A DNA stretch of 64,000 nt from Limnochorda pilosa. Lineage in GTDB: Bacteria > Bacillota > Limnochordia > Limnochordales > Limnochordaceae. Below the pieces are notes generated by a model, which saw nothing but the letters and a program-made list of their open reading frames with translations, ran no database searches and had not been told where the DNA came from. Below, piece after piece: positions 1-19,063 of the stretch. The stretch lies in NCBI RefSeq assembly GCF_001544015.1, contig NZ_AP014924.1, forward strand, positions 1,178,001-1,242,000, in the 5' to 3' direction. Every line of letters begins with the position of its first letter. The stretch's first letter is position 1. The position numbers and the translations under genes are program-made.

Positions 1-1194
1 CTCCTGCACCTTCACCAGGAAGACCGTCTCCCGCAGCTGGTGGTCCCAGGGCCGGAAGGAGACGCCGATCCCCTTGTAGACGTCGAAGAGCGTCGCTTCC
101 CCTTCCAGGTAGGCCGCGAGCTGGCCCGGGTCCGTCGTCCCGGCGAAGGAGGCCGCCTCCCACAGGATCTTCACCGACGCCCAGGCGGCCCAAGCGGGGG
201 GATCCATGGGCTGGCCCCACCGTTCGAGGAAGCGGGCGTTCAGCTCACGTCCCCCGTAGTTGTCCAGGGTCGCCTCCCAGAGGGTGGCGCGGTAGCCAGT
301 CCCGGTCCGGGGCGCCGAGGTGCGGGCGGCCGCGAAGAAGGTGCGGGTCTGGGCGACGGCCTCAGGGAAGCCGGTGACCCGGTGGGGAAGACCCGCCTCC
401 TCGTACTGGCCCAGGAAGTCGAGCTGGCCCACCCCGTCCAGGAGGAGCAGCACGAGGTCGGGTTTGGCCTCCCGGATCTGCTCCAACACCGGGCGGTACT
501 CGGGTTCGCCTGGCGCGACGCTGGCGTTCCCCGCCTCCCTCCCTCCCCAGTGGCGCTGGGCGAGGGCGTGCCGGGCCCGCTCGAGCCGTGCACGGCCCTC
601 GGGGGCGTCGGGCGTCACGAAGAACCAGCGCCGGGCGCCCTGGCGGACGAACCAGTCGGCCACAGCGTCCAGGTACATGGCGGCGCTGGCCTCCACGTGG
701 AAGGTATGGCGCCGGCACCCCTCGTGCCGCAGGGCGTCGCTCGCGCAGCCGATATTGAGGAAGAGCGCCCCTCGCTGCTCGGCCAGGTCTGCGAGGGCGG
801 AGCAGCCCTCCGGGTCGAAGCCGCCCAGGATGCCGTAGACGCCCTCGCGTGCCATGAGGCGCGCCGCCGCCCGCACGGCGGCCGCGGGCGTGGGGGCGCT
901 GGCCGTCAGGACTTCGAAGCGACGCCCCAGCATCTCGGCGATCCCCGAGAACTCCTCACCGGCCATGATGGCGCCCTTCCGGGCGGCCTCGCCCGCCACC
1001 TGGTACGTGGCCGCCGAGACGGGCGAGATCCCCGTGCGTACCGGGCCCACGTAGGCCACGCGCAGGGGCTCGGCCTGAGCCCTTGCCCGGAGTGGGGCGA
1101 TCGACGCGGGCGGGCTGCCGGCCAGGAGCCCTGCTGCCAGCCGGGCCGCCCCCGCCAGGAAGCGGCGTCGCGACATGCCGCGTGGCAGGCTCAC
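1..1194 (-). CDS. PQQ-dehydrogenase-associated ABC substrate-binding protein (3' end outside window)
   Basis: A periplasmic type I solute-binding protein of the branched-chain amino-acid receptor fold, resembling the family that accompanies PQQ alcohol dehydrogenases (TIGR03863 type). It opens with a twin-arginine-like signal (SRRRFLAGA followed by an Ala/Leu-rich stretch) and then the mature start EPLRVAYVGP. I chose the GTG start because it overlaps the upstream stop as GTGA and is preceded by GGAAGGTGG; an ATG six codons later has no ribosome site. The 398 codons seen are near the family length, so little is missing. It is third after xoxF and the XoxJ-cytochrome gene, so it probably serves the same dehydrogenase. 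No transporter for it lies in the window, and its ligand is unknown. Confidence 0.82.
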   Translation of the reverse strand, partial: MSLPRGMSRRRFLAGAARLAAGLLAGSPPASIAPLRARAQAEPLRVAYVGPVRTGISPVSAATYQVAGEAARKGAIMAGEEFSGIAEMLGRRFEVLTASAPTPAAAVRAAARLMAREGVYGILGGFDPEGCSALADLAEQRGALFLNIGCASDALRHEGCRRHTFHVEASAAMYLDAVADWFVRQGARRWFFVTPDAPEGRARLERARHALAQRHWGGREAGNASVAPGEPEYRPVLEQIREAKPDLVLLLLDGVGQLDFLGQYEEAGLPHRVTGFPEAVAQTRTFFAAARTSAPRTGTGYRATLWEATLDNYGGRELNARFLERWGQPMDPPAWAAWASVKILWEAASFAGTTDPGQLAAYLEGEATLFDVYKGIGVSFRPWDHQLRETVFLVKVQE

Positions 1195-2510
1195 CAGACC
1201 ACCTTCCCAGGGTCTCCCTTGTAGAGGGAACGGATGAAGGCGACGACCTCCCAGATCTCCTCCTCGCTCAGATACCCGCCCCAGGCCGGCATGCCGTTGG
1301 GGCGCCCGTCGTGGATGGTCTTGAAGACGCTCGCGTCGTCGCCTCCGTAGATCCACCGGCTGTCCACCAGGCTCGGGCCCATGCCGCCGCCCCCCTGGGT
1401 GCCGTGGCAGCCGTAGCAGCCCCACTTGGAGAAGAGCGCCTTCCCCTCCGCGATGGCCTCCTCGTCGCCGGTGTAGGGGTTCTTCTGGGGGAGCTCCTCG
1501 CCCTCGGCACCGCCTTCCTCGCCCGCAGCGGCGGTAGGTGCGACCCAGCGGCGCAGCTTTGCCAGGGCCGATCGCAGCCGATCCACCAAAGCCCGGGCGC
1601 CCTGCCCGCGCCGAAGGCCGGTGGCCGAGGCATCTTTCGGGGGTGGCGCTGAGGCGCCCGCGGAACCGGGTGCCCCGGGGATGGGCAGGGTGGGGACCCC
1701 GTACTCCGTCAGGACCGCCTGGATCTGCTCCCAGTTGGCCTCAATGGCCCGATCCAGCTGGTCGCGCAGGGCCTCGTCGCCCTGGCGGACCGCCATGGAG
1801 ACCGAGAAGACCATGGGCAGGAAGGGCGGCTCGATCTCGGGGGTGACGGGGTGCAGTTTCAGCTCCACCGGCATCTTCTTGGCGAAGTAGCCCGCGATGG
1901 GTCCCCAGACGATGGCCACGTCCACGTCGCCGTCGGCCACCGCCTGCATGATGGGTGCGAGCGGTGCGGGAGAGGTGTAGTCCCCGTAGACGCTGTAGCC
2001 CACCACGTTTTCCGCCATGCCGCGGTTCGCCAGCGCGTGGGCGGGCGGGGTGTTCGTGTAGTCGTCGCCCACCATCTGAACGCCGATGTGGAGGTCCCGC
2101 AGGACGGGGTCGTCCAGCGAGGCGATCTCGAGAGCGCGATCCGACCGGGTGACGAAGACGTAGCTGGTGCGGTAGTAGGGCTCGGACGTGAGGGCGAGGG
2201 GGTACTGGTCGGGGACGCCCATCACCACGTCGCACAGCCCCTCGCGCAGGGTCTCCCGGATGAAGCCCCGGCGCTGGGGCCACCACGCGTAGGTGAGGCG
2301 GGCGCCCAGGCTGTCCGCCAGCATCTGCGCGATCCGGTTCTCAAACCCCTCCAGCCGGTCGTTGGAATAGGGCAGGTTGTTGGGGTCGGCGCAGACCGTC
2401 AACTCCCAACCATCGTCGCCCTGGGCGGAGGACGTGCTCCCGGAGAGAACCGCCGTCGTCACCAGCAGGCAGGCCAGGAGGATCCCGACCCGCCGGGCAC
2501 CTGGGTGCAT
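1191..2510 (-). CDS. xoxJ: XoxJ-like binding protein fused to class I cytochrome c
   Basis: A 439-residue exported protein with two parts. Residues 1 to about 30 are a signal peptide ending near SSAQG. Residues about 34-270 are a family 3 solute-binding domain of the quinoprotein-associated MxaJ/XoxJ type (start ELTVCADPNNLPYSN). A Pro/Ala-rich linker follows, then a cytochrome c domain with haem site CYGCH at 365-369 and a probable axial Met at 407 in GMPAWGG. It should dock on XoxF and take its electrons. Start ATG 2510 has GAGGGGG upstream; the reading frame stays open further upstream without homology. It lies 137 nt behind xoxF. A separate xoxG was not found, so the cytochrome domain probably replaces it. 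Fused XoxG/XoxJ proteins are known from Methylacidiphilum. Confidence 0.88.
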   Translation of the reverse strand: MHPGARRVGILLACLLVTTAVLSGSTSSAQGDDGWELTVCADPNNLPYSNDRLEGFENRIAQMLADSLGARLTYAWWPQRRGFIRETLREGLCDVVMGVPDQYPLALTSEPYYRTSYVFVTRSDRALEIASLDDPVLRDLHIGVQMVGDDYTNTPPAHALANRGMAENVVGYSVYGDYTSPAPLAPIMQAVADGDVDVAIVWGPIAGYFAKKMPVELKLHPVTPEIEPPFLPMVFSVSMAVRQGDEALRDQLDRAIEANWEQIQAVLTEYGVPTLPIPGAPGSAGASAPPPKDASATGLRRGQGARALVDRLRSALAKLRRWVAPTAAAGEEGGAEGEELPQKNPYTGDEEAIAEGKALFSKWGCYGCHGTQGGGGMGPSLVDSRWIYGGDDASVFKTIHDGRPNGMPAWGGYLSEEEIWEVVAFIRSLYKGDPGKVVW

Positions 2511-2647: not shown

Positions 2648-4465
2648 CTAGAGGCTGAAGACGTAGAGCATGCCGCCCTTGTTGGTGTAGCGCCCCAGGT
2701 CGCTGAAGGCGTTGACCGCGCCCAGGGCGGCCGTCGGGTCCTCCAGCGAGAGGTCGCCGGCCACGGTCAGGCCCGACCACCCGCCGATCCCTGAGTAGAC
2801 GGCCACGTACTGCTTCCCGTCCGGCCCCAGGAAGGTCATGGGGGCGCCGATGATCCCTGAGCCCACCTTGAACGTCCACAGCACCTCGCCGGTGACGGCG
2901 TTGACTGCCTTGAACCAGCCGTCCATGGTGCCGTAGAAGACCACGTTGCCGCCCGTGGCCAGGACGCCGCTCCAGACGGAGAAGTTCTCCTTGATGCCCC
3001 AGACCTTCCGCCCCCGCGCGCCGTCCCAGGCGACGAACTCGCCCCGGTTGCCGCCGGGGCCCGCATACATCTTCACCGTAGCGCCCACGTAGGGAACGCC
3101 GGCCACGTAGGCGACCTCGGTGCCCTCGTAGTCCATGCAGAGGTTGTTGGTGGGGACGTAGAAGAGCCCGGTCCTGGGCGAGAAGGCCGCGGGTTGCTGA
3201 TCCTTGCCGCCCATGGCCGCGGGGCAGATGTTGGTCGTGTTGACGCCCTGCTTGGTGGACTTGTCGGCGTTGCGCGCGGGCACGCCGGTCTCGAGGTCGA
3301 CGCCGCTCGCCCAGTTGACGTAGACGTAGGGCTGAGCCACCAGCACCTCGCCCGTCGCCCGGTCGATGGTGTAGGCGAAGCCGTTGCGGTCGAAGTTGAC
3401 CAGCACCTTGCGCGGCTTGCCGTTGATGGTGAGGGTGACCAGGATGTTCTCGTTCACCCCGTCGTAGTCCCACTGGTCGTGGGGGGTCTTCTGGTAGGCC
3501 CAGCGCGCGGAGCCCGTATCGGGATCCCGCGCGAAGATGGTCATCGACCACTTGTTGTCGCCGGGGCGCAGGTCCGGGTTCCATGTGCCCGGGTTGCCGA
3601 CCCCGTGGTAGAGCAGGTCCAGCTCGGGATCGTAGGAAAGCCACGTCCAGGTGGCCGAGCCCCCGATCTTCCACTGATCCTCGGGCCAGGTGGTGACGCC
3701 CAGGTCCTTCCCCTTCAGGCTGTCGTAGAAGGGCTTGAAGTCGTCGCCGATGAGCACCTCCGAATCCGGCCCCGTGGTGTACGCCCGCCAGACCTGCTCG
3801 CCGGTGTGGATGTCGTTGGCGGTGAGGAAGCCGCGGATGCCGAACTCCCCGCCGCTGATGCCGGTGATGACCTTGTCCTTCACCACCAAGGGCGCCATGG
3901 TGATGGTCTCGCCCCGGGCCACGTCGCCCTGCTTCACCTGCCAGACGACCTCGCCGGTGTTGGCGTTCAGGGCGTAAGTGTGGGCGTCCAGGGTATTGAA
4001 GAAGACCTTCCCGTCGGCGTAGGTGAGACCCCGGTTCACCACGTCACAGCAGGCGACGCCGATGGAACGCGGGTCGGTGTCGGGGACGAACTTCCACTTG
4101 ACGGCCGGGCCGGGCTGGGTGAGATTCAGGGCGTAGACGATGTTGGGGAAGGGGGTGATGAGGTACATGGTGCTCCCCACCACCAGCGGAGCACCCTCGT
4201 GGCCCCTCAGGACGCCGGTGGAGAAGGTCCACGCCACCTTGAGCTGGTCCACGTTCAGGATGTTGATCTGGTCCAGGGAGCTGTATCGGGTGGCCGAGTA
4301 GTCCTTGGCCGGCATGACCCACTGGCCGTCGTCCCGCTGCAAGTTGAGGAGCTCAGGGAGGGAGCCCTGCTGCTGCGCGATGGCTGGACTCACGGCTGCG
4401 GCGAGGATCAGGGTCAGGGCAGCCATGCAGCCGATCCAACGTCCGGACGAGAGAAGCCTGCTCAT
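2648..4465 (-). CDS. xoxF: Lanthanide-type PQQ methanol dehydrogenase XoxF
   Basis: A 605-residue periplasmic quinoprotein, full length for the PQQ methanol/ethanol dehydrogenase family, with a signal peptide ending AIA-QQQ near residue 30. It oxidises methanol to formaldehyde or formate. Visible features are the vicinal disulfide CC139-140, metal/PQQ ligands E207 (GGEFGIRG) and N291 (GNPGTWN), catalytic D333 and a second Asp, D335, in QWDYDGVN, and R360 in FDRNG. The D-Y-D pattern marks lanthanide-dependent XoxF; calcium enzymes (MxaF) have Ala at the second position. No mxaI-like small subunit gene is present. Upstream are AAAGGAGG and a sigma-A-like promoter. The PQQ genes are 8 kb away on the other strand. 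Methanol is the likely substrate, though other short alcohols are possible. Confidence 0.95.
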   Translation of the reverse strand: MSRLLSSGRWIGCMAALTLILAAAVSPAIAQQQGSLPELLNLQRDDGQWVMPAKDYSATRYSSLDQINILNVDQLKVAWTFSTGVLRGHEGAPLVVGSTMYLITPFPNIVYALNLTQPGPAVKWKFVPDTDPRSIGVACCDVVNRGLTYADGKVFFNTLDAHTYALNANTGEVVWQVKQGDVARGETITMAPLVVKDKVITGISGGEFGIRGFLTANDIHTGEQVWRAYTTGPDSEVLIGDDFKPFYDSLKGKDLGVTTWPEDQWKIGGSATWTWLSYDPELDLLYHGVGNPGTWNPDLRPGDNKWSMTIFARDPDTGSARWAYQKTPHDQWDYDGVNENILVTLTINGKPRKVLVNFDRNGFAYTIDRATGEVLVAQPYVYVNWASGVDLETGVPARNADKSTKQGVNTTNICPAAMGGKDQQPAAFSPRTGLFYVPTNNLCMDYEGTEVAYVAGVPYVGATVKMYAGPGGNRGEFVAWDGARGRKVWGIKENFSVWSGVLATGGNVVFYGTMDGWFKAVNAVTGEVLWTFKVGSGIIGAPMTFLGPDGKQYVAVYSGIGGWSGLTVAGDLSLEDPTAALGAVNAFSDLGRYTNKGGMLYVFSL

Positions 4466-4730: not shown

Positions 4731-5474
4731 TCAGAAGGATCCCGCACCCTCCAGGGCTCGGACCGCCTCCCGGGCCAGGGCGGCCAGGCGGGGATCGACG
4801 GGCGTCCGCGGGCGGGGGAGCGACCGGCGGACGTCGAGCTCCTGGACGATCCGCCCCGGCGGGCCGGCTAGGATCACCACCCGATCCGCCAGGTAGATGG
4901 CCTCGGCCGGGTCATGGGTTACGAAGAGGACCGTGGGCCGCCGCTCCTCCCATAGCCGGGCCAGCTCCGCCCGGAGGCGGCAGGCCGTCAGCTCGTCCAG
5001 GGCGCTGAACGGTTCGTCCAGGAGGAGTACGTCCGGGTCCACCGCCAGGGCCCGGGCGACGGCCACCCGCTGCTGCATGCCTGCGGAGAGCTGGTGGGGG
5101 AAGGCGCCGCCATGGTCCCCCAGGCCGACCCGGGCCAGCCACGCCCGCGCGACCCGGCGCCCCTCCTCCCGGGGAAGATCCAGGACGAAGCGGACGTTCT
5201 CCTCCGCCGTGAGCCAGGGCAGGAGCCGTGAGTCCTGGAAGACATGGCCGATCCTGGGAGGCCGGGGGGCGAGGAAGCGGACGGCGCCACCATCAGCCTG
5301 CTCGAGGCCGTTCAAGATCCGCAGGAACGTGGTCTTGCCGCAGCCCGACGGACCCAGCAGGCAGACCAACTCGCCGGGGGCGGCTTCGAGGTGCAACCCG
5401 TCCAGCGCGGCACGCCGGCCCCCGTCGGGGCGGGTGAAGACCTTGGCCAGAGCGGCCACCTGGATCCCGACCAT
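4731..5474 (-). CDS. ABC transporter ATP-binding protein, nitrate/sulfonate/taurine type
   Basis: A 247-residue cytoplasmic ATPase of the SsuB/TauB/NrtD group that powers the adjacent permease. Walker A is GPSGCGKTT, the Q-loop is VFQDSRLLPW, the signature is a relaxed LSAGMQQRVA, and Walker B is VLLLDEPFSALDE. The ATG overlaps the permease stop by one base (TGATG) and has GGAGAGGTG upstream, so the two are translationally coupled. It is the last of three importer genes transcribed toward xoxF. The substrate cannot be read from the sequence; the position next to the methanol genes suggests, but does not show, a role in that pathway. Confidence 0.9.
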   Translation of the reverse strand: MVGIQVAALAKVFTRPDGGRRAALDGLHLEAAPGELVCLLGPSGCGKTTFLRILNGLEQADGGAVRFLAPRPPRIGHVFQDSRLLPWLTAEENVRFVLDLPREEGRRVARAWLARVGLGDHGGAFPHQLSAGMQQRVAVARALAVDPDVLLLDEPFSALDELTACRLRAELARLWEERRPTVLFVTHDPAEAIYLADRVVILAGPPGRIVQELDVRRSLPRPRTPVDPRLAALAREAVRALEGAGSF

Positions 5475-6343
5475 CACCTCTCCTCCCTGTCCCAGGTGGG
5501 GCGGCGCCAGCGGAAGGCCAGGCGCTCCACGGTGCCAAGCACACCCAGGTCCAGCAGGGCCACGACCAGGATGGTGGCCAGGGCGTACGCCAGGATGCCG
5601 CCCATGTCGAACATCTGGAAGAAGAAGCTGATCTGGTACCCCACGCCGTCGGTGCGCCCCATCAGTTCCGCGAAGACGACCATCTTCCAGGCCAGCGACA
5701 GGGCGCCGCGGGCCGCCCCCAGCACGTGGGGCAGCAGCTGGGGCGTCACCACCCGGACCCATACCACCGCGGGGGACCGCCGGAAGGCGCGTGCCATCTC
5801 CACCAGGCCGTGGTCCACCGCCTGGGTAGCCGCCCGGACCTGAGCCGCCACCGATGGGGCCACGCTCAGGGCGACGGCGGCCACCGCCGCCCTGTCGTTG
5901 AGCCCCAGGAGCACGTAGGCCAGCACGATGTAGACGATGCGGGGCAGCGAGAGCCCCACCAGCATCCAGCCCTCCAGGAGCCCGTTCACCAGGCGCGACG
6001 CCCCCATCGCCGCCCCCGCGGCCGAACCGGCGCCCATGGCCAGGGTGAACGCCATCGCCACCCGGCGGAGGGAGACGCCCAGATGGTGCAGCAGGTGACC
6101 GCGGGTCACCTCCTCCACCAGAAGACGAACCGTGGTCCACGGCCCCGGGAGCACCGTCTCCGACAGAAGCAGAGAGAGGAGCCACCAGGCGGCCATCAGG
6201 GTCCACAAGGACAGGATGTGCCCGGCGCCAGGGAGTCGCCGGAAGCGCCTCCCCGCCGGGAGCCCCAGGGTGCGGAGCCCCCGCCAGCCGGCTTCTCCGT
6301 CGACGCGCCCCCGCGCCATCGATCGTGCCCCTTCCAGAGTCAC
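5474..6343 (-). CDS. ABC transporter permease, SsuC/TauC-like
   Basis: A 289-residue inner-membrane permease with about six hydrophobic segments, the first near residues 42-62. The EAA-type coupling loop is degenerate, around VEMARAFRRSPAVVWVRVVTPQLLP. Two starts are plausible: GTG 6343, which overlaps the binding-protein stop as GTGA, and ATG 6319, which has GGAAGGGG eight bases upstream. The longer form is listed. It forms an importer with the ATPase downstream and the binding protein upstream. Confidence 0.88.
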   Translation of the reverse strand: MTLEGARSMARGRVDGEAGWRGLRTLGLPAGRRFRRLPGAGHILSLWTLMAAWWLLSLLLSETVLPGPWTTVRLLVEEVTRGHLLHHLGVSLRRVAMAFTLAMGAGSAAGAAMGASRLVNGLLEGWMLVGLSLPRIVYIVLAYVLLGLNDRAAVAAVALSVAPSVAAQVRAATQAVDHGLVEMARAFRRSPAVVWVRVVTPQLLPHVLGAARGALSLAWKMVVFAELMGRTDGVGYQISFFFQMFDMGGILAYALATILVVALLDLGVLGTVERLAFRWRRPTWDREER

Positions 6344-7335
6344 CTGGCCACCCCGAGGGACGTGGTGAAGACGCCGGGATCGACCCGCTCCACGCCCACG
6401 ACCTCAGCCCCTGCTACCGCCACCAGCCGGCCCACCATGCGCGAGAGGTCGGCCACCGTGGCTTCGCTCCACTCGGACGGGACGCTGGTCTGCCAGGCCT
6501 CCTGTACCGCCGGCAGGAGGGAACGATCGGGCAGACGGTAGAGGCCCTGGTCCACGATCTCCTCCCAGAGGGTCGGGTCCTGCGCGAGACGGTCCCAGGC
6601 GTCCCGCATGGCGGCCACGAAGCCGGACACCGCCTCGGGTTCGGTCTCGACCAACGCTTCCCGGGCCACCAGGACGAGGATGGGCATCTCCGGCGGAAGG
6701 TCCAGGGTGCGGAGGAGCTCATCCACAGAGACGACAGCCCGGTACCGGCCGGTGGCGGTCAGCCGGGCGACGAAGTGCCAGTAGGGCATGGCCGCGTCCA
6801 ACTCGCCCCGGTCCAGCAGCTCCTGCATCAGCGGTGGGGCTGCGGCCAGGGCCTCGGCCTCCTCCTGGGGATCAAAGCCGAAGCGATCGACCGCGGCGGC
6901 CCGCAGGATCAGCCAGCTCTTGTCGTTCAGGCTCGCCACGCCGATGCGCTTCCCCTTCAGGTCCGCAAGGCTGCGGATGGGACTTTCGGCCGGTACCACC
7001 AGCGAGCCCTCTGCCAGGCTGTAGGGGTAGACGGCCTGCACCGGGACCCCCTGGCGCCGGAGGAGGTTGACGCCGATGACGTCGTCGACCACCAGGTCCA
7101 CCTCGCCCGCCTGCAGGGCGATCTTGGCCGCCTGCTTGCTGGCCAGGGTCGTCACCTCCACCTGCACCCCGTGCGCCCGATCCAGCCCGTCGCGCTCGAT
7201 CGCGTGGAGCACCCAGGCGAAGGTCCCCGATGCCTGCAACCCCACCCGGACCGTGCCCGCCGCCCGCGCCGCCCTGGCCGCCAGCATCCAGCAGGCCGCG
7301 AGCACCACCAGGGCCAGTGCCAACCGCCGCTGCAT
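6340..7335 (-). CDS. ABC transporter substrate-binding protein, NrtA/SsuA-like
   Basis: A 331-residue exported type II solute-binding protein. Residues 1-26 are a signal peptide ending ARAA, with no lipobox Cys, so a free periplasmic protein is expected. The body carries family segments such as VRVGLQASGTFAWVLHA, LVVDDVIGVNLLRRQG and LADLKGKRIGVASLN. The ATG has a strong GAGGAGGTG site. It is first of the three-gene importer. The members nearest in architecture bind aliphatic sulfonates, taurine or nitrate. A TTGACC-like -35 lies about 30 nt upstream but the -10 is poor. Confidence 0.88.
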   Translation of the reverse strand: MQRRLALALVVLAACWMLAARAARAAGTVRVGLQASGTFAWVLHAIERDGLDRAHGVQVEVTTLASKQAAKIALQAGEVDLVVDDVIGVNLLRRQGVPVQAVYPYSLAEGSLVVPAESPIRSLADLKGKRIGVASLNDKSWLILRAAAVDRFGFDPQEEAEALAAAPPLMQELLDRGELDAAMPYWHFVARLTATGRYRAVVSVDELLRTLDLPPEMPILVLVAREALVETEPEAVSGFVAAMRDAWDRLAQDPTLWEEIVDQGLYRLPDRSLLPAVQEAWQTSVPSEWSEATVADLSRMVGRLVAVAGAEVVGVERVDPGVFTTSLGVAR

Positions 7336-7879: not shown

Positions 7880-8335
7880 GTGCAGCTCGAGTACCGTCAC
7901 CAGTACGGGGGCCTCGCCCCGGACGTCCTCTGGGGAGCCCTCTTCGACCCCGAGATCCTTCGAAGGGCCATACCAGGGTGCCAGGGGCTGGAAGGCCAGG
8001 GAGACGGGGCGTACAAAGCGAGCCTCGGGCTGAACGTGGGACCCATCCGGGGCGGTTTCGACGGCCAGGTGGCGCTCAGCGACGCCGAGCCCCCTCGCAG
8101 GTACCGGCTCCGTCTCGACGGCGGCGGCGCCCCCGGCCAGGTCAAGGCCGACGCTTGGATCAGCCTGGAGCCCGACGGGCAGGGCACGTCCCTCCTCTGC
8201 CGGGCGGAGGTGAGCGCCACGGGGACCCTCGCCGCCGTGGGCCAGAGGGTGATGGGCAGCGTCGGCAAGATGCTGGTGGGCCGCTTCTTCAAGAACATCG
8301 AGCACGAGCTCTCCGGCCAACGGGCCACCGGTTGA
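7880..8335 (+). CDS. coxG: CoxG-like SRPBCC protein
   Basis: A 151-residue protein of the CoxG family (SRPBCC/START-like fold), found with aerobic CO dehydrogenases and related molybdenum hydroxylases and thought to help recruit or assemble them at the membrane. The family N-terminal pattern is visible as LFDPEILRRAIPGCQGLE, with GTLAAVGQRVMGSVGKMLVGRF near the C-terminus. The GTG start is set by AAGGAG seven bases upstream; the frame stays open further upstream but without homology. It is the first gene of the plus-strand oxidase operon, 78 nt before coxS. Confidence 0.85.
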   Translation: MQLEYRHQYGGLAPDVLWGALFDPEILRRAIPGCQGLEGQGDGAYKASLGLNVGPIRGGFDGQVALSDAEPPRRYRLRLDGGGAPGQVKADAWISLEPDGQGTSLLCRAEVSATGTLAAVGQRVMGSVGKMLVGRFFKNIEHELSGQRATG

Positions 8336-8413: not shown

Positions 8414-8932
8414 ATGAACGTGGAGGTACCCATCACCGTCACCGTCAACGGCGTGGAGTACAGCCGCCACGTGGAGCCCCGTCAGCTCCTGGTCCATTTC
8501 CTCCGGGAGACCCTGGGGCTGACCGGTACCCACGTGGGATGCGACACGAGCCAGTGCGGGGCCTGTACCGTCCTGCTGGACGGAGAGGCGGTCAAGTCCT
8601 GCACGGTCCTCGCGGCGCAGGCCGACGGCAGCCAGGTCACCACCGTGGAAGGGCTCGAACAGGACGGCATGCTCCATCCCATCCAGGAAGGGTTCTGGGA
8701 GAAGCACGGGCTTCAGTGCGGTTTCTGCACGCCCGGCATGCTCATGGTCACCCAGGCCCTCCTCAACCGGAACCCCGACCCCAGCGACGAGGAGATCCGG
8801 GAGGCCCTGGAAGGCAACCTGTGCCGCTGCACGGGGTACCAGAACATCGTCCGGGCCGTGCGGCGCGCGGCCGAGTCCATGCAGGAGCGGCACGCCCAGG
8901 TGGCGGCCGCCCGTGGAGAGGAGGGTGCCTGA
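8414..8932 (+). CDS. coxS: Molybdenum hydroxylase 2Fe-2S small subunit (CoxS-like)
   Basis: A 172-residue iron-sulfur subunit that carries electrons from the Mo site to FAD. Residues 1-80 are a plant-ferredoxin-type domain with ligands C43, C48, C51 and C63 ([12 protein letters not shown]). Residues about 90-150 are the [2Fe-2S]-binding helical domain with C102, C105, C137 and C139 (QCGFCTPGM and LCRCTGYQ). All eight ligands are intact. AAGGGAGG precedes the ATG. Its stop lies four bases before coxL. Confidence 0.95.
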
Positions 8933-8935
8933 GCC

Positions 8936-11278
8936 ATGCCGACCGTCTTCGGCACCGCCATCAAGCGTCGTGAGGACCCGCGCCTCATCACCGGCCGGGC
9001 GACCTACACCGACGACATCCGCCTGCCCGGCCTGGTCCACGCGGCCATCCTGCGCTCGCCCCACGCGCACGCCCGCATCCGCTCCATCGACGTGGAGAAG
9101 GCCCGGCGCGCGCCGGGCGTGGTGGCCGCCTACACGGGCCGGGACCTGCAGGGCCGGATCGGAACGGTGCCCACCGCCTGGCTGCTCCCCGACTCGGACC
9201 TGAAGACGCCCCCGCACCCCGTGCTGGCCGTGGACCGGGTGCGGTACGTGGGGGACGGCGTGGCCCTGGTGGTGGCCGACAGCCCCGCCCGGGCCCGGGA
9301 CGCGCTGGAACTCATCGGGGTCGAGTACGAGCCCCTTCCGGTGGTGGTGAACCAGGAGGAGGCGATGCAGCCGGGCAAGCCCCAGCTCCACGGCGAGGCG
9401 CCCAAGAACGTGGCCTTCCACTGGAAGGCGGGCAACGGCGCGTCCGAGGCTTTCCAGCAGGCGGAGGTCGTCGTCCGGCACCGCTTCGTCAACAACCGGC
9501 TGATCCCCAACGCCATGGAGCCCCGCTCGGCCGTGGCCCGCTACAATCCCTCCTCGGGCGAGATGACCCTCTGGATGACCTCCCAGAACCCCCACATCCA
9601 CCGGTACCTCCTGTCGGGGATTCTAGGCATCCCGGAGCACAAGCTGCGGGTGGTGGCGCCCGAGGTGGGAGGCGGCTTCGGCAGCAAGATCGCCTGCTAT
9701 CCCGACGAGGCGCTGGTCGCCTTCGCGGCCCGGGAGCTGGGCGTGCCCGTCAAGTGGACCGAGGACCGGCGGGAGAGCTTCATTGCCACCACCCACGGGC
9801 GGGACCACATCCAGGACGTGGAGCTGGCCGGAAGGAAGGACGGTACCATCACCGGCCTCCGGGCGACCGTCCACGCGAGCATGGGCGCCTACGTTTCCAC
9901 TGCGGCGCCCGGTGTGCCCACCATCCTCTTCGGGCTCATGCTCCAGGGCGCGTACCGGATCCCGCAGATCGAGGTGGACGTCTACGGGGTCTTCACCAAC
10001 ACCACCCCCACCGACGCCTACCGGGGGGCCGGCCGGCCCGAGGCCACCTTCATCGTGGAGCGGCTGGTGGACCTCTTCGCCCGACAGATCGGCATGGACC
10101 CGGCGGAGGTCCGGCGCAGGAACTTCATTCCCGCGAACGCCTTCCCCTATGACACGCCCACGGGGCTCACCTACGACTCGGGCGACTACGCCACCGCCCT
10201 GGACAAGCTCCTGGAGGCCCTCGACTACCCCGCCCTGCGCCGGCGCCAGGAGGAGCTCCGTCGCCAGGGGCGCTACCTGGGCGTGGGCTTCTCTACCTAC
10301 GTGGAGATCTGCGGGCTGGGACCGTCCCAGGTCGCGGGGGCGGTCGGCTTCCAGGGCGGTCTTTGGGACAGCGCTACCCTACGGGTCCTGCCCACGGGGA
10401 AGGTCCTGGTCTACACCGGCACGTCGCCCCACGGCCAGGGCGAGGAGACCACCTTCGCCCAGATCGTGGCGGAGGCCCTCGGCATCCCGGTGGAGGACGT
10501 GGAGGTCCGCCACGGCGACACGGGCGAGGTCTACATGGGCTGGGGCACCTACGGAAGCCGGACCACGCCCGTGGGCGGCAGCGCGGTCGCCCGGGCGGCG
10601 GAACGGGTGGTGGAGAAGGCCCGGGTGTTTGCCGCCCACATGCTGGAGGTCGCACAGGACGACCTGACCTTCGAAGAGGGCCGCTTCCAGGTGAAGGGCG
10701 CACCCGGCCGCTCCGTGAGCTTCCAGGACGTGGCCCTGCAGGCCCACCTGGCCTGGAACCTGCCCGAGGGCGTGGAGCCGTCGCTGGAGGCCAGCGCGTT
10801 CTACGATCCCCCCAACTTCTGCTACCCCTTCGGCGCGCACGCGTGCGTGGTGGAGGTGGACCGCGACACGGGCGAGGTGCGGCTCGAGCGCTACGTGGCC
10901 GTGGACGATTGCGGACGCATCATCAACCCCCTCATCGTGGAGGGGCAGGTGCACGGCGGCGTGGTGCAGGGGATCGGCCAGGCCCTCTGGGAGGGCGCCG
11001 TCTACGACGAGAACGGGCAGCTCCTCACGGGCTCCCTCATGGACTACGCCCTCCCCAAAGCCCGGTTCTTTCCCGAGATCGAGACCCACCACACCGAGAC
11101 GCCCGCGCCCCACAACCCGCTGGGCGTCAAGGGCGTGGGGGAGACGGGCACCATCGCCTCCACGCCCGCGGTGGTGAACGCGGTGGTGGACGCGCTCGCA
11201 CCCTTCGGCGTGAAGCACCTGGAGACGCCTCTGACCCCCGAGAAGGTCTGGAAGGCCATGCAGGATGGGAGGAGGTAG
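8936..11278 (+). CDS. coxL: Form II CO-dehydrogenase-like molybdenum subunit (CoxL)
   Basis: A 780-residue catalytic subunit of the xanthine oxidase family that binds molybdopterin cytosine dinucleotide. The active-site loop AYRGAGR is at residues 361-367, the form II signature; true CO-oxidising form I enzymes carry AYRCSFR with the S-selanyl Cys. The catalytic Glu is E736 in [10 protein letters not shown]. The N-terminal fold segment [18 protein letters not shown] is typical. Form II enzymes oxidise various small molecules such as aldehydes, purines or nicotinate-type rings, so CO cannot be assumed. The gene order S-L-M fits form II. A TTG-to-ATG choice is not an issue here: the ATG follows GGAGAGGAGGGTG. 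Confidence 0.95.
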
Positions 11279-11281
11279 ACC

Positions 11282-12154
11282 ATGTTCCCGGCAGCCTTTG
11301 AGTACCAGCGGGCGGCCACCTTGCCCGAGGCGCTGCGGATGCTGGCCGCGTCGGGTGGGGAGGCCAAGGTGCTGGCCGGAGGGCACAGCATCCTGCCCAT
11401 GATGAAGCTGCGCCTCGCCACGCCGCAGAACCTGGTGGACATCGGGCGGGTGCCTGAGCTGAAGGGCATCCGCCTCGAAGGGAACCGGCTGGTGGTGGGC
11501 GCCCTCACGACCCACCGCGAGCTCGAGACGTCGGAGATGGTGGCCCGCCACTGCCCGGTACTGGCCAGGGCGGCCTCGGAGGTGGGCGACGTCCAGGTGC
11601 GGAACCGGGGGACCCTGGGCGGCAACCTGGCCCACGCGGACCCGGCTTCAGACCTCCCGGCCGTGGCCCAGGCGATGGAGGCCGTGCTGAAGCTCGCGAG
11701 CCCCCGGGGGATCCGGGAAGTGGCCATCGGCGACTTCATCCTGGGGCCGCTGGTCACCGACCTGCAGGGCGACGAGATCATCCAGGAGATCTCCTTCGCG
11801 ACCGTCTCGGGGCGGAGCGGCAGCGCGTACGCCAAGTTCGCGCACCCGGCGTCGGGGTACGCGGTGGTGGCTGTGGCCGCCGTCGTGACCCTGGGTGCCG
11901 ATGGAAGCTGCCAGGCCGCCCGGGTGGGCGTGACGGGTGCCTCCTCCACGGCCTACCGCGCTACCGGGGTGGAACAGGCCCTGGTGGGGCGCCGGCCCGA
12001 TGCGCCGGTGCTCGAGCAGGCCGCCGCGCACGCGGCCGAAGGGGCCGACCTCATGGCCGACCTCTTCGCCTCCGAGGCGTACCGCGGGCACCTGTGCCGC
12101 GTGATGACCCACCGGGCCCTGAAGGAGGCCGTGGGTGAGGCCATGGGACGCTGA
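11282..12154 (+). CDS. coxM: Molybdenum hydroxylase FAD subunit (CoxM-like)
   Basis: A 290-residue FAD-binding subunit that takes electrons from the Fe-S subunit. The two FAD motifs are AGGHSILP (residues 32-39) and TLGGNLAHADPASD. The C-terminal CO_deh_flav domain includes SAYAKFAHPASGYAVV. GGAGGAGGTAG precedes the ATG, three bases after coxL. It completes the S-L-M trimer unit. A strong hairpin follows 20 nt downstream before pqqA. Confidence 0.94.
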   Translation: MFPAAFEYQRAATLPEALRMLAASGGEAKVLAGGHSILPMMKLRLATPQNLVDIGRVPELKGIRLEGNRLVVGALTTHRELETSEMVARHCPVLARAASEVGDVQVRNRGTLGGNLAHADPASDLPAVAQAMEAVLKLASPRGIREVAIGDFILGPLVTDLQGDEIIQEISFATVSGRSGSAYAKFAHPASGYAVVAVAAVVTLGADGSCQAARVGVTGASSTAYRATGVEQALVGRRPDAPVLEQAAAHAAEGADLMADLFASEAYRGHLCRVMTHRALKEAVGEAMGR

Positions 12155-12279: not shown

Positions 12280-12351
12280 ATGTGGGTCAAGCCCGACTAC
12301 GAGATCGTAGAGACGGGTGCCGAGGCCACAGCGTACATGGGGCGCGGCTAA
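12280..12351 (+). CDS. pqqA: PqqA, PQQ precursor peptide
   Basis: A 23-residue peptide from which PQQ is built. The Glu and Tyr that are cross-linked by PqqE are visible as E15-x-x-x-Y19 in EATAY, the invariant PqqA pattern, and the ends (MWVKPDYEIVETG and MGRG) match the usual N-terminal W/P-rich start and short basic tail. AAGGAAGGAGG lies upstream of the ATG. It heads pqqABCDE, 92 nt before pqqB. High expression relative to the enzymes is expected, since one peptide is used up per PQQ. Confidence 0.93.
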   Translation: MWVKPDYEIVETGAEATAYMGRG

Positions 12352-12442: not shown

Positions 12443-13345
12443 GTGCGCGCAAGGCTCCTCGGAACAGGAGCAGGGGGCGGCTTCCCGCAGTGGAACTGCG
12501 CTTGTCGCGGGTGCGAGCGTGCGCGGGCCCGGCACGCGGGAACCCGGGTACGGACCCAATCCTCGCTGGCACTGAACGCGAACGGAACGGAGTGGTACTT
12601 GGTGGATGCCACGCCCGACGTGCGCGTTCAGGTCGAGGCCTTCCCCCTGCTCCGTCCGGGCCCCGGGCTCCGGCAGACGCCGATCCGAGGCATCCTCCTC
12701 ACCGACGCAGAGCTGGATCACACCGTGGGTCTCCTGGTCCTCCGGGAAGGAGCGGAACTGACGGTCCACTCCACCGCTACGGTGCGAGAGGCGTTGAGCG
12801 GTCCTTTCCCCGTACGAGAGATGCTGAGACCCTATGCCACCCTGGAGTGGATCGAGGTCCGCCCAGGTGCGAGCTTCGTCTTGGATGGGGGGCGCATCCG
12901 AGCGGTCGCCTTTCGCACCGGCTCCAAGGCCCCCAGGTACGTGGGGTCGGCCGTGCGGGGCGACGGCTGGAGCGTCGGCTACCGGTTCGAGGACACGTCG
13001 ACGGGAGGCGCCCTGGCGTACGTGCCGGGCCTGGAGGCGTGGACCCCAGAGGTGGAGGAGCACCTGGCTGGAACGGGAGCGGTCTTCCTGGACGGAACGT
13101 TCTGGTCGGACGACGAGCTCGTCGCCCTTCACGCCTCGGAGTCGACCGCACGGGAGATGGGTCACCTGCCCATGACGGGCCCCGGGGGAACGGCCCGCCG
13201 GCTTGCCGAGCTCGCGGTACCGCTCAAGGCCTACGTTCACGTGAACAACACCAATCCGGTCCTCCGGGAGGATGGACCGGAGTACCGGTTCCTGGCCTCT
13301 TTGGGTATCGGGGTGGGGTGGGACGGCCTGGAGGTGGAGCTCTGA
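12443..13345 (+). CDS. pqqB: PqqB, PQQ biosynthesis hydroxylase-like protein
   Basis: A 300-residue metallo-beta-lactamase-fold protein of PQQ biosynthesis, reported in other organisms to hydroxylate the tyrosine of the cross-linked precursor. The diagnostic N-terminus is LLGTGAGGGFPQWNC with cysteines C19, C21 and C24, and the metal-site segment LLTDAELDHTVGLL is present. The GTG start is placed by GGAGG seven bases upstream and by alignment with the family start; upstream in-frame codons overlap pqqA. It is followed 22 nt later by pqqC. Confidence 0.93.
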   Translation: MRARLLGTGAGGGFPQWNCACRGCERARARHAGTRVRTQSSLALNANGTEWYLVDATPDVRVQVEAFPLLRPGPGLRQTPIRGILLTDAELDHTVGLLVLREGAELTVHSTATVREALSGPFPVREMLRPYATLEWIEVRPGASFVLDGGRIRAVAFRTGSKAPRYVGSAVRGDGWSVGYRFEDTSTGGALAYVPGLEAWTPEVEEHLAGTGAVFLDGTFWSDDELVALHASESTAREMGHLPMTGPGGTARRLAELAVPLKAYVHVNNTNPVLREDGPEYRFLASLGIGVGWDGLEVEL

Positions 13346-13367: not shown

Positions 13368-14060
13368 GTGGAGGCGCCGTGGTCCCGAGAGGAGTTCGTT
13401 GACCGCCTCAGGGCGGTGGGTGAGGCGAAGTATCACGACAAGCACCCCTTCCACGTCCGCATGCACCGGGGGGAACTGAGCCCGCCGGAAGTGAGGGGAT
13501 GGATCGCCAACCGGTTCTACTACCAGAAGATGATCCCGGTGAAGGATGCGCTCATCCTGTCCAAGCTCCCGAACCGCGAGGACCGGCGTCGTTGGATCCA
13601 GCGCATCCTGGATCACGATGGCCGGGGCGATGACGAGGGAGGCATCGAGGCGTGGCTGCGGCTGGGCGAGGCCGCAGGGATTCCGCGGGCGGCTCTCCTG
13701 GACGAACGGCACGTCGTGCCCGGCGTGCGCTTCGCGGTGGATGCGTACGTCCACTTCTGCCGCCTCGAGCCGTGGTGGGTGGCCGTCGCCTCCTCCCTCA
13801 CGGAGCTCTTTGCGCCGGACCTGGTGGCACGCCGGATCAGGGTTTTCGAAGAGCACTACCCGTGGGTGCGGCCCGAGGGCCTTGCGTACTTTCGCCAGCG
13901 CCTGCATCAGGCGCCTCGCGACGCTGAGCACGGCCTGGAGCTGGTCGTGCGGGCGGCGCCCACCCGAGCGGACCAGGAGCGGACGGTGGCGGCGTTGAGC
14001 TTCAAGTGCGACGTCCTCTGGGCGCTCCTGGACGCAGTGGAACGCGCCGGTCCTGCCTGA
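13368..14060 (+). CDS. pqqC: PqqC, pyrroloquinoline-quinone synthase
   Basis: A 230-residue cofactor-free oxidase that performs the last ring closure and eight-electron oxidation to PQQ. The family core is visible as KYHDKHPFHVRMHRGEL, GWIANRFYYQKMIPVKDA and HVVPGVRFAVDAYVHF, including conserved His, Tyr and Arg residues of the active site. The GTG start has GGAGG seven bases upstream. pqqD starts 14 nt after its stop. Confidence 0.95.
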   Translation: MEAPWSREEFVDRLRAVGEAKYHDKHPFHVRMHRGELSPPEVRGWIANRFYYQKMIPVKDALILSKLPNREDRRRWIQRILDHDGRGDDEGGIEAWLRLGEAAGIPRAALLDERHVVPGVRFAVDAYVHFCRLEPWWVAVASSLTELFAPDLVARRIRVFEEHYPWVRPEGLAYFRQRLHQAPRDAEHGLELVVRAAPTRADQERTVAALSFKCDVLWALLDAVERAGPA

Positions 14061-14074
14061 GAGGGGATGGAACC

Positions 14075-14341
14075 GTGGGCTGGACGCGCTCCTCCACGCC
14101 CCGCCTGGCGCGGGGGGTTCGGCTTCGCTGGGATCCGGGACGCGGCCGTCACCTCCTGCTCCTACCGGAGAGGGTCGTGGTCCTCAACGAGACGGCGGGT
14201 GCCATTCTCGAGCTCTGCGACGGAGAGCGGCCGGTGTCGGACGTCGTGCGGGAGATGGAAGCTCGCTACGGGGCTCGGGGGATCGAGTCGGACGTCCTGG
14301 AGTTCCTCGAGCGCATGAACGAGGAAGGGTGGATCACATGA
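14075..14341 (+). CDS. pqqD: PqqD, PqqA-binding chaperone
   Basis: An 88-residue RRE-type chaperone that holds PqqA and presents it to PqqE. Family segments are PRLARGVRLRWDPGRGRHLLLLPE, given here only in part as RLARGVRLRWD, and VVVLNETAGAILELCDG. The GTG start has GAGGGG eight bases upstream. Its TGA overlaps the pqqE ATG (ATGA), which suggests coupled synthesis of the two partners that act as a complex. Confidence 0.92.
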   Translation: MGWTRSSTPRLARGVRLRWDPGRGRHLLLLPERVVVLNETAGAILELCDGERPVSDVVREMEARYGARGIESDVLEFLERMNEEGWIT

Positions 14342-15480
14342 AGGAGGTTGCGGTGAGCGAGAGGGTGACGAGGGGCGTGCAAGAGTCCGAGGTCCCCTCC
14401 CCCTTCTCCTTGCTCGCCGAGCTGACCCACCGTTGCCCCCTGCACTGCCCCTATTGCTCGAATCCGCTGCGTTTAGCAAGGCGTGAGGAGGAGCTGGAGA
14501 CCGGGACCTGGCTGCGGGTGCTGGACGAGGCGAGGGACCTGGGCGTGGTCCAGGTGCACTTCTCGGGAGGCGAGCCCCTGCTGCGGCGGGACCTGGAGGC
14601 GTTGACGGCGCGTGCCCGGGAGAACGGAGCCTACGTCAACCTCATCACCAGCGGCGTCGGATTGGATCGGACGCGGGTGCGACGCCTGCGAGAAGCAGGG
14701 TTGGACGCAATCCAGGTGAGCGTCCAGGCTGCGCGCCCCGAGCTCTCGGATCGCATCGTCGGAAGGAAGGCCTGGGAGGAGAAGCGCCAGGCGGCGCTGG
14801 CCGTGAAGGCGGAAGGGCTTCCCCTCACGCTCAACGTGGTCCTCCATCGCTTCAACCTGGACGACCTGGAGCCGATCATCCTCATGGCGGAGGCCTGGGG
14901 AGCCGACCGGTTGGAGCTCGCCAACACCCAGTACTACGGCTGGGCCTTCCTGAACCGGGAGCGGTTGCTTCCTTCGGTCGAGCAGGTGGCTCGCGCCGAG
15001 GAGGTCTACCGGCGCCACGCCGAGCGGCTGCACGGCCAGATGGAGCTGGTCTGGGTGGTGCCGGACTACCATGCCGACCATCCCAAGCCGTGCATGGGCG
15101 GATGGGGGCGCATCGGGCTGACGGTGAGCCCGGAAGGAGATCTCCTTCCATGCCCGACCGCGGGTGTCATCGCCGATCTCTCCTTTCCCAGTGTTCGCAC
15201 GTGGACCCTGGCGCGGGCGTGGCGTTCCTCGGAGGCGTTCAACCGGTTTCGCGGCTTCCAGTGGATGCCAGAGCCGTGCCGCAGTTGTGACCGGCGCTTC
15301 GTCGACTTTGGGGGCTGCCGCTGCCAGGCGTACCTCCTCACCGGCGACGCTGCCCGCACCGATCCCGTCTGCCGGTGGTCCTCCGATCACTTCATCGTCG
15401 AGAACACGGTCATGGAGGCCCGTGAGCTCACACACGCCGGGGTACCGGGCACAATGCGTGGCGTGCTGAGAATCTGGTAG
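14338..15480 (+). CDS. pqqE: PqqE, radical SAM PqqA cross-linking enzyme
   Basis: A 380-residue radical SAM enzyme that forms the C-C bond between Glu and Tyr of PqqA. The SAM-cluster cysteines are C33, C37 and C40 (RCPLHCPYC). The C-terminal SPASM-type auxiliary-cluster region is rich in Cys, with PCMGGWG, LLPCPTAG, CRSCDRRF and GGCRCQAY. The listed ATG overlaps the pqqD stop. A GTG at 14353 has a better site (AAGGAGG, 5-nt spacing), so the protein may be five residues shorter. It is the last pqq gene; no pqqF/G protease is nearby. Confidence 0.95.
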   Translation: MKEVAVSERVTRGVQESEVPSPFSLLAELTHRCPLHCPYCSNPLRLARREEELETGTWLRVLDEARDLGVVQVHFSGGEPLLRRDLEALTARARENGAYVNLITSGVGLDRTRVRRLREAGLDAIQVSVQAARPELSDRIVGRKAWEEKRQAALAVKAEGLPLTLNVVLHRFNLDDLEPIILMAEAWGADRLELANTQYYGWAFLNRERLLPSVEQVARAEEVYRRHAERLHGQMELVWVVPDYHADHPKPCMGGWGRIGLTVSPEGDLLPCPTAGVIADLSFPSVRTWTLARAWRSSEAFNRFRGFQWMPEPCRSCDRRFVDFGGCRCQAYLLTGDAARTDPVCRWSSDHFIVENTVMEARELTHAGVPGTMRGVLRIW

Positions 15481-15566: not shown

Positions 15567-16463
15567 ATGCCGACGGAGAACCCCTTCGGGAGCATTGAAG
15601 CGCTGGAGGCCGCGGTGGAACAGGCCGGATACGTTCCTGACCGGGCCCTGTCGACCGTGCTCTACCTGGCCCTGGCCCTGGAGCACCCCCTCTTCCTGGA
15701 AGGCGAGCCGGGGGTGGGGAAGACCGAGGTGGCCAAGGTGCTCGCTCAGGCCACGGGGCGCCCCCTGGAGCGTCTCCAGTGCTACGAGGGGCTGGACGTG
15801 GCCCACGCGCTCTACGAGTGGGATTATCCCAGGCAGCTCCTGGAGATCCGCCTGGCCGAGGCATCGGGTCCGGTGGATCGACCGGCCGTCAACCGGCAGG
15901 TCTTCAGCCCGGCCTTCCTCATTCGGAGACCCCTCCTGCGGGCCATCGACCCCGAGGGTCCGGCCCCCGTGCTCCTCATCGACGAGATCGACCGGAGCGA
16001 CGAAGAGTTCGAGGCGTTCCTGCTGGAGCTGCTCTCGGACTTCCAGGTGACCATCCCCGAGCTGGGCACGCTGCGGGCCCGGGAGCGACCCGTGGTGGTC
16101 ATCACCTCCAACCGCACCCGGGAGATCCACGACGCGCTGAAGCGGCGGTGCCTCTACCACTGGATCGACTACCCCGACGCCGAGCGGGAGCGCCAGATCC
16201 TCCTCCGTAAGGTCCCAGGCGTGACCGAAGGGCTGGCCCGGCAAGCGGTGGCCTTCGTCCAGCGGTTGCGCCAGATGGATCTCTACAAGCTTCCCGGCGT
16301 GGCCGAGACCATCAACTGGGCGGCAGCCCTGCAGGCCCTGGGGCAGCGGGAACTGGACCCGGGCACGGTGGAGGCCAGCCTGGGGGTCCTCCTCAAGTAC
16401 CGCGACGATCTCCAGGGCCTGGATCGGGAGCAGGTCCGCCAGATCCTGGCGGAGGTGGGGTAG
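15567..16463 (+). CDS. coxD: MoxR-type AAA+ ATPase, CoxD-like
   Basis: A 298-residue AAA+ chaperone. In CO-dehydrogenase clusters CoxD remodels the apo-enzyme while the active-site sulfur and copper are inserted. Walker A is GEPGVGKT (46-53), Walker B is VLLIDEIDR, sensor 1 lies in VVVITSNRTR, followed by the Arg-finger segment DALKRRC. ATG 15567 is preferred over the adjacent GTG because AAGGA lies five bases upstream. Its stop is three bases before coxE, and the MoxR/VWA pair acts together in known systems. MoxR was first named for methanol dehydrogenase clusters, so a role for XoxF is an alternative. Confidence 0.9.
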   Translation: MPTENPFGSIEALEAAVEQAGYVPDRALSTVLYLALALEHPLFLEGEPGVGKTEVAKVLAQATGRPLERLQCYEGLDVAHALYEWDYPRQLLEIRLAEASGPVDRPAVNRQVFSPAFLIRRPLLRAIDPEGPAPVLLIDEIDRSDEEFEAFLLELLSDFQVTIPELGTLRARERPVVVITSNRTREIHDALKRRCLYHWIDYPDAERERQILLRKVPGVTEGLARQAVAFVQRLRQMDLYKLPGVAETINWAAALQALGQRELDPGTVEASLGVLLKYRDDLQGLDREQVRQILAEVG

Positions 16464-16465
16464 GC

Positions 16466-17722
16466 GTGAGCATGGACCTTCCGGCGCTCGTGACGCGACC
16501 CGAGGTGATCCTGGCCAACCTGCTGGTGCTGGAGCGGCTACTGCGCCTGGGCGGCCTGGGCGTGGGTCCCGAGCGCATGGCCCTGGCCCTGAAGGCCCTC
16601 GAGGTCGTGGGGGTGCACGATCGGGAACGGGTGCAGGGAGCGCTCCGGTGCGTGGCGGCGTCCGGGCGGGAGGAGGCCCGGCGCTTCGACCAGGTCTTCC
16701 AGGTCTTCCTGGGGCTGCTGGCGGGTCGCCGGGAGGACGCGGAGCTGGCCGCCCGGACGCTGGGCGCGTCGGCGGCGGCCCAGCGGGAGCGCTGGCGCCG
16801 GGCGCCGTCCCGCAACGGCGCCCCGCCGTCGCCGGGCGAAACGGCCCGACCCACCCCGGCCAGGGTTCCCTGGCAGGTGTGGGAGGGGCATGGAGGTGAT
16901 GAGGTCCCCGAAGGGCGGCCCGCGGGAGGGTACAGCCCGGCGGAGCGGCTCGCCCAGAAGGACTTCGCCCGGTACGACGCGGCCGATCGGGGGCTCGCCC
17001 TGCAGCGGCTGGAGACGCTGGCCTGGCAGGGCGTGCGACGTTCCCACCGGTGGCGCCGGTCGACCCGCGGCCACGGCGTCGACCTGCGCCGGGCCTTGCG
17101 GGAGACCGCGACCCGGGGCGAGGTGTGGGCGCTGCCCCGGCGCCGGCGGCGGGAAAGGCTGCGACCGGGTGTGGTGCTCCTGGACGTGAGCGGCTCCATG
17201 GAGCCCTATGCGTGGCCCCTGCTGGCGCTGGCCCACCACCTGGTGGCCCGCCGGCAGCCGGTGGAGGTCTTCCTCTTCGGCACGCGCCTGACGCGGGTCA
17301 CCCGCCTCCTGCGCCGGCGGCCGGTGGAGGAGGCGCTCCGGCGGGCGGTGAGCGAGGTACCCGACTGGTCTGGCGGGACCCGCATCGGCGAGAACCTGGG
17401 CCGGTTCAACCGGGCGTGGGCCCGCCGGGTGGCGACCCGGGGGGCGGTGGTGATGGTGGTCTCCGACGGCCTGGACCGCGGCGACCCCCGGGCCGTCGCC
17501 CGCGAGATGGCCCACTTGCAGCGGACCGCCCACCGTCTGATCTGGCTGAACCCTCTCCTGGGTGGCGAGGGCTACCAGCCCCTGGCGGCGGGGATGCAGG
17601 CGGCGCTGCCCTTCGTGGACGACTTCCTGCCCATGGCGCGGCTGGCCGACGTGGAAGGTCTCCTCAGGCGCCTGCAGGCGGTGGGGAGCCGGCGGCCGGT
17701 GCGGCGGCAACAGGCTCGATGA
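16466..17722 (+). CDS. coxE: VWA-domain protein, CoxE-like
   Basis: A 418-residue cytoplasmic von Willebrand factor A protein, partner of the MoxR ATPase in maturing molybdenum hydroxylases. The MIDAS motif DVSGS is at 240-244, with further metal-site segments SGGTRIGENL and VSDGLDRGD. The N-terminal 200 residues are helical and Arg-rich. GTG 16466 has GGAGGTGGGG at proper spacing; an ATG two codons later is less well placed. Its last 59 bases overlap the convergent xdhC-like gene. Confidence 0.9.
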   Translation: MSMDLPALVTRPEVILANLLVLERLLRLGGLGVGPERMALALKALEVVGVHDRERVQGALRCVAASGREEARRFDQVFQVFLGLLAGRREDAELAARTLGASAAAQRERWRRAPSRNGAPPSPGETARPTPARVPWQVWEGHGGDEVPEGRPAGGYSPAERLAQKDFARYDAADRGLALQRLETLAWQGVRRSHRWRRSTRGHGVDLRRALRETATRGEVWALPRRRRRERLRPGVVLLDVSGSMEPYAWPLLALAHHLVARRQPVEVFLFGTRLTRVTRLLRRRPVEEALRRAVSEVPDWSGGTRIGENLGRFNRAWARRVATRGAVVMVVSDGLDRGDPRAVAREMAHLQRTAHRLIWLNPLLGGEGYQPLAAGMQAALPFVDDFLPMARLADVEGLLRRLQAVGSRRPVRRQQAR

Positions 17723-19026: not shown

Positions 19027-19063
19027 GGGGGTGGGCGGGGACGCGCCTGGGGAGGGCCGGACC

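Follow-up and report, generated by a model that had tools for sequence, protein, structure and literature searches.

Gene content of the locus

The window, i.e. the whole stretch of 64,000 nucleotides that was analysed, originates from the chromosome of Limnochorda pilosa (genome G000). A gene for a XoxF-type methanol dehydrogenase lies on its minus strand and is followed, in the direction of transcription, by a xoxJ-xoxG fusion and by lutA-, lutB-, lutE- and lutF-like genes, of which only lutA reaches into the window (the others have negative positions in Table 1). The fused gene, directly downstream of xoxF, supplies both the XoxG cytochrome and the XoxJ partner. Its XoxJ domain scores 294.6 bits with TIGR03871, over the cut-off, and has XoxJ (6ONP) as its best PDB match (E=3e-43), while the cytochrome domain displays one CXXCH haem motif at residue 365. 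The A-B-E-F order of the lut-like genes also adjoins xoxF, cytochrome c and binding protein genes in Roseomonas. All four lut-like TIGRFAM matches score under the curated cut-offs; homology is clear, and the cargo is assigned by analogy. The lut genes carry La in Methylorubrum extorquens (PMC7391723), and lanthanide is the putative cargo of the importer described here.

A second ABC importer (4731-7335) is encoded upstream of xoxF on the same strand. This NMT1/Ssu-type importer accompanies the xox island in three Limnochordales families. A form-II cox-type cluster is transcribed divergently from xoxF and encloses, 8-11 kb from that gene and on the opposite strand, the complete set pqqABCDE.

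Table 1. Coordinates of the genes of the xox island and of its surroundings
Feature	Position in window	Strand	Basis or remark
lutF-like permease	-3394..-2504 (outside window)	-	below curated cut-off
lutE-like ATPase	-2483..-1587 (outside window)	-	below curated cut-off
lutB-like YVTN propeller	-1321..-326 (outside window)	-	below curated cut-off
lutA-like periplasmic binding protein (TIGR03863-like)	1..1176, continuing to -137 (G000 1177864-1179176)	-	
xoxGJ, 439 aa: XoxJ-type binding domain (residues 36-275) fused to XoxG-type cytochrome c domain	1191..2510	-	TIGR03871, PDB 6ONP, cytochrome cL matches
xoxF, PQQ/lanthanide methanol dehydrogenase	2648..4465	-	605 aa, ATG start, signal peptide; ligands E207, N291, D333, D335
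ATPase of second, Ssu/nitrate-type ABC importer	4731..5474	-	family-level match, below cut-offs
Permease of second ABC importer	5474..6319	-	PF00528
NMT1/SsuA-like binding protein of second ABC importer	6340..7335	-	kept with island in three families
CoxG-like protein	7880..8335	+	gene call; 48% homologue in syntenic G003 locus; without NCBIfam match
CoxS-like [2Fe-2S] subunit	8414..8932	+	PF01799, PF00111
CoxL-like molybdenum subunit, AYRGAGR (form II) motif	8936..11278	+	TIGR02416 792 bits, below cut-off 991
CoxM-like FAD subunit	11282..12154	+	PF00941, PF03450
pqqA, MWVKPDYEIVETGAEATAYMGRG, with E-x3-Y	12280..12351	+	read directly from sequence
pqqB	12443..13345	+	TIGR02108 365 bits, cut-off 245
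pqqC	13368..14060	+	TIGR02111 312 bits, cut-off 240
pqqD	14066..14341	+	TIGR03859 92 bits, cut-off 46
pqqE	14338..15480	+	TIGR02109 501 bits, cut-off 381
CoxD-like AAA ATPase	15567..16463	+	
CoxE-like VWA protein	16472..17722	+	PF05762
XdhC/CoxI-like protein	18244..19026	+	PF13478
MobA/MobB-like molybdenum cofactor protein	19031..20263	+	PF03205, PF12804

The dehydrogenase and its metal site

The xoxF product is a quinoprotein with an N-terminal secretion signal and matches TIGR03075, the PQQ methanol/ethanol dehydrogenase model, with 694 bits (cut-off 480). Its top PDB match is the Ce/Eu enzyme XoxF2 of Methylacidiphilum fumariolicum (4MAE, E=4e-236, 61% identity); other XoxF and MxaF chains rank behind, and ethanol and sorbose enzymes are found far below. 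A chance match is excluded. The lanthanide-type Asp, two residues past the catalytic Asp, is present together with the Glu and Asn ligands: upon alignment with MAFFT, residues E207, N291, D333 and D335 correspond to E172, N256, D299 and D301 of 4MAE. At the fourth ligand position, where the window protein has Asp335, the calcium enzyme MxaF (4TQO) carries Ala (WDYAG). The CC pair (residues 139-140) and the catalytic Asp are intact, and none of the five departures from columns conserved at ~90% or more falls on a ligand. The AlphaFold model (mean pLDDT 85, pTM 0.88) is closest to the Eu and Ce structures of XoxF2, 6FKW and 4MAE (TM 0.92-0.96, 1.7 A).

The original prediction had named these four residues as a XoxF metal signature, had placed Ala at the second motif position of calcium MxaF enzymes and had described a XoxF-PQQ island. 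Each of these points was borne out, the XoxF identity being supported by the sequence, the tree, the metal site and the modelled fold, in the company of the xoxJ-G, lut-like and pqq genes. The enzyme is a typical XoxF, the novelty of which resides in its host and context, and its signature predicts lanthanide dependence and methanol as the substrate. That the enzyme uses calcium in spite of its additional Asp is very improbable: this residue is reported to be indispensable for the coordination of lanthanides and is lacking in MxaF (PMC8546591), MxaI was not noticed among the island genes, and lut-like genes adjoin.

Phylogenetic placement

A phylogeny of 43 sequences was computed using IQ-TREE and a second tree was built without the long branches. 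The window XoxF pairs with a homologue, 78-81% identical, from another family of Limnochordales (support 100/99). The pair is included, again at 100/99, in a superclade with XoxF2, XoxF1 (7O6Z), XoxF5, MxaF and sequences from Binatota, Myxococcota and Gemmatimonadota, which is split from the ethanol and sugar quinoproteins at 100/100. Within this XoxF/MxaF superclade the Limnochordales pair is the outermost branch (99/96 for the rest), a position on which the tree without long branches agrees (98/96). In AU tests, grouping of the window XoxF with the presumed XoxF3 set, a label inferred from the taxonomy of that Acidobacteria/Alphaproteobacteria group, obtained p=0.0001. Its union with XoxF2 (p=0.13) or XoxF5 (p=0.064) is disfavoured by the tree, and groupings with Binatota (p=0.066) or with the Gemmatimonadota pair (p=0.18) are likewise disfavoured, not rejected.

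Other identities could be discarded. XoxF3 was rejected on the AU result given above, and XoxF1, in which a diagnostic Asp immediately precedes the metal Glu (PMC8546591), on the presence of Gly206 at that position. MxaF was rejected on Asp335, instead of Ala, at the second motif position, and an ethanol or sugar quinoprotein on the 100/100 split in addition to the structural ranking. The safe statement is that the enzyme is a XoxF, neither XoxF1 nor XoxF3; in a sequence set where XoxF4 (Methylophilales) has no representative, it probably constitutes a branch of its own.

Host lineage and distribution

The genome of L. pilosa, of the order Limnochordales, is a single closed chromosome of 3,817,036 bases, 99.95% complete. 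Spo0A was found in the host and in 20/20 relatives searched and, among 14 controls, in Bacillus subtilis alone. Omp85 was found in all five genomes searched (G000, G002, G003, G005 and G006). RuBisCO is present in G000 and G003 and absent from G006, these being three one-contig genomes of the order. This set matches the closed genomes reported for Limnochordales, namely L. pilosa, Carboxydochorda subterranea L945 and G. subterranea LN, of which the first two, not LN, have RuBisCO (PMC11456536), and we infer that G003 is C. subterranea, representing a second family of the order. A sporulation regulator, an outer-membrane machinery and a closed genome with RuBisCO are thus all present in the host, as for Limnochordales. 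Since Omp85 occurs in all five genomes and didermic walls are described in Limnochordales isolates (PMC11456536), a periplasm exists; the host being diderm, the periplasmic location of the enzyme is compatible with a genome of Firmicutes type. A Firmicutes-type host had been anticipated at the outset, with two outcomes named that would speak against the reading, a position among ethanol or sugar quinoproteins and a known proteobacterial XoxF host. The tree places the protein with XoxF/MxaF and the host belongs to Bacillota.

The chance that the gene is a contaminant of the assembly of a Bacillota genome is practically nil. The 3.82-Mb chromosome is a single closed contig and GC is even across the window; contamination was rejected on the closed chromosome and on the synteny of the same block in G003. 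In that genome the xox-lut-cox block recurs with a XoxF 78-81% identical to that of the window: xoxF, xoxGJ and the lutABEF-like genes display the same order, the cox cluster is located ~10 kb further on, and parts of the second importer are nearby. The pqqB and pqqE genes of G003 are located elsewhere on the chromosome.

Strong relatives are confined to Limnochordales among 398 genomes of the phylum and are patchy inside the order; no match was obtained in the 47 genomes of the class outside the order. A scan of 84,980 species, which may leave out close neighbours of the window's record, gave 407 relatives, and none of the best 80 is recorded under a Bacillota name. Among the matches listed, the closest relatives outside the order come from MAGs assigned to Binatota, Gemmatimonadota and Myxococcota (66-72%). 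The island may have been gained by Limnochordales through horizontal transfer from a donor resembling Binatota or Gemmatimonadota, as opposed to being an old lineage of their own. We rate this possibility slightly below even; it concerns the origin only and is compatible with the proposed function. The identity of these nearest relatives, the AU tests, which do not reject the Binatota or Gemmatimonadota-pair groupings, and the patchy distribution within the order all favour a transfer, whereas the Limnochordales pair lies outside all these groups in both trees and the long xox-lut-cox block is common to two families.

Several related loci were observed in the order. G001, the sole other representative of the genus and a MAG of 86% completeness, is without xoxF and pqq genes. 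A second quinoprotein alcohol dehydrogenase, which carries the Asp pair and clusters close to the ethanol-type enzymes, is encoded in G003 and its congener G009 (L095, L090). The sole full-length CoxL-like protein found in G003 (L132 13022-15352) displays the form II motif AYRGAGR, as does its counterpart in the window. The isolate taken as G003 (Carboxydochorda) is reported to grow on CO (PMC11456536); form II enzymes may function in CO oxidation, or else the annotation should be re-examined. In family f2, the MAGs G002 and G005 (L102 8928-10703, L103 9991-11688) encode a different quinoprotein with an Asp-Asp signature, WDFDE, and also carry lut-like genes and the second importer. PqqB and PqqE were not found at cut-off in these two MAGs, and a dependence on external PQQ is possible.

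Passage of the metal through the outer membrane

The Lut uptake system includes LutH, a TonB-dependent receptor of the kind by which known lanthanide users bring the metal through the outer membrane, and LutH-like receptors are present across all the phyla studied among methane oxidisers (PMC12482762). The barrel and plug domains of such receptors (PF00593, PF07715) were not found in the five Limnochordales genomes in which Omp85 had been searched; both searches were positive in the E. coli, Caulobacter and Bacteroides controls. This raises the question of how lanthanide crosses the outer membrane. Tentatively, and with the balance leaning against this proposal as a whole, Limnochordales would use lanthanides by means of their own deep-branching XoxF and acquire the metal without a TonB-dependent receptor, possibly by way of a different porin or barrel together with the second ABC importer, while members of family f2 would run a lanthanide dehydrogenase on the PQQ of their neighbours.

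Proposed physiology

On the genes, ligands, gene order, conservation, phylogeny and host lineage described above, it is very likely that Limnochordales possess a lanthanide-dependent methanol dehydrogenase system combining XoxF/PQQ methanol oxidation, electron transfer by XoxGJ, lut-like uptake and a Calvin route. XoxF would be exported to the periplasm of the diderm cell, bind a light lanthanide and the PQQ produced by pqqABCDE, and oxidise methanol. The cytochrome domain of the XoxGJ fusion would receive the electrons and hand them on to a cytochrome c oxidase, and the lutABEF-like importer would carry the lanthanide across the inner membrane. Candidates for the formaldehyde step are XoxF, the adjacent molybdenum hydroxylase and a folate route. 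Because Fae, which marks one formaldehyde route, was not found in G000 or G003 and RuBisCO is present, carbon would most likely leave as formate and CO2 and then be fixed by the Calvin cycle. The likeliest route is thus the XoxF, formate, CO2 and Calvin sequence discussed in PMC12997859. The isolate taken as G003 grows on formate and O2, and the main text on Limnochordia does not contain the word 'methanol' (PMC11456536).

A lanthanide-dependent XoxF could alternatively serve mainly to oxidise aldehydes or small alcohols other than methanol, or to detoxify, instead of supporting growth on methanol. This is unlikely in our estimation, though the methylotrophy genes observed are xoxF, xoxGJ and pqq and none further, with Fae absent, the adjoining molybdenum hydroxylase with its form II motif could act on aldehydes, and facultative methylotrophs often carry XoxF enzymes. 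Against it, the sequence, tree position and fold of the window protein are those of the methanol dehydrogenases, not of PedH/ExaA, and ethanol and propanol are not used for fumarate respiration by C. subterranea (PMC11456536).

Comparison with known systems

XoxF2 of M. fumariolicum SolV (4MAE, 6FKW) shares the four metal ligands and the fold with the window enzyme. The host phylum differs, and the window XoxF branches outside XoxF2 with support, the AU test not rejecting their union. A cytochrome cGJ fusion occurs in strain SolV as well. The XoxF of Candidatus Binatota MAGs (PMC8262859) is 68-72% identical to that of the window, and in most Binatota loci xoxJ and xoxG are fused in one frame, as in L. 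pilosa; the host phylum differs, and lut-like and cox genes were not detected beside xoxF in the flanks examined. Methylorubrum extorquens AM1 (PMC7391723) shares XoxF, XoxG, XoxJ and lutA/B/E/F-type genes with the system described here. In AM1, however, xoxG and xoxJ are separate and the TonB receptor LutH is present, whereas in Limnochorda xoxGJ is fused, the genes form one block, no TonB receptor was found, and the cox cluster and a further ABC importer are present in addition. XoxF and RuBisCO occur together in the XoxF-CBB methylotrophy of Bradyrhizobium and Sinorhizobium, as in Limnochorda; these genera take the glutathione route for formaldehyde (PMC12997859).

Significance

In the open-access literature, to which the search was devoted and outside which subscription journals lie, no earlier report was found that joins Limnochorda with methanol dehydrogenase or describes XoxF in Bacillota; in one paper that contains both XoxF and Bacillota, the Bacillota passages concern other organisms. 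Lanthanide metabolism has been treated so far as a trait of Gram-negative phyla, and one survey calls it unsurprising that Gram-positive MAGs are without XoxF (PMC10875860). We found a full rare-earth methanol-oxidising gene set in a diderm member of Bacillota bearing spore genes, the descriptions found elsewhere being of other phyla only. With such a complete set in Bacillota, the use of rare earths among living organisms is probably wider than had been assumed. The deep XoxF branch is relevant to the question of whether the lanthanide enzymes are older than those using calcium, and since these spore-gene-bearing diderm lineages have cultured members, their use of lanthanides is directly testable.
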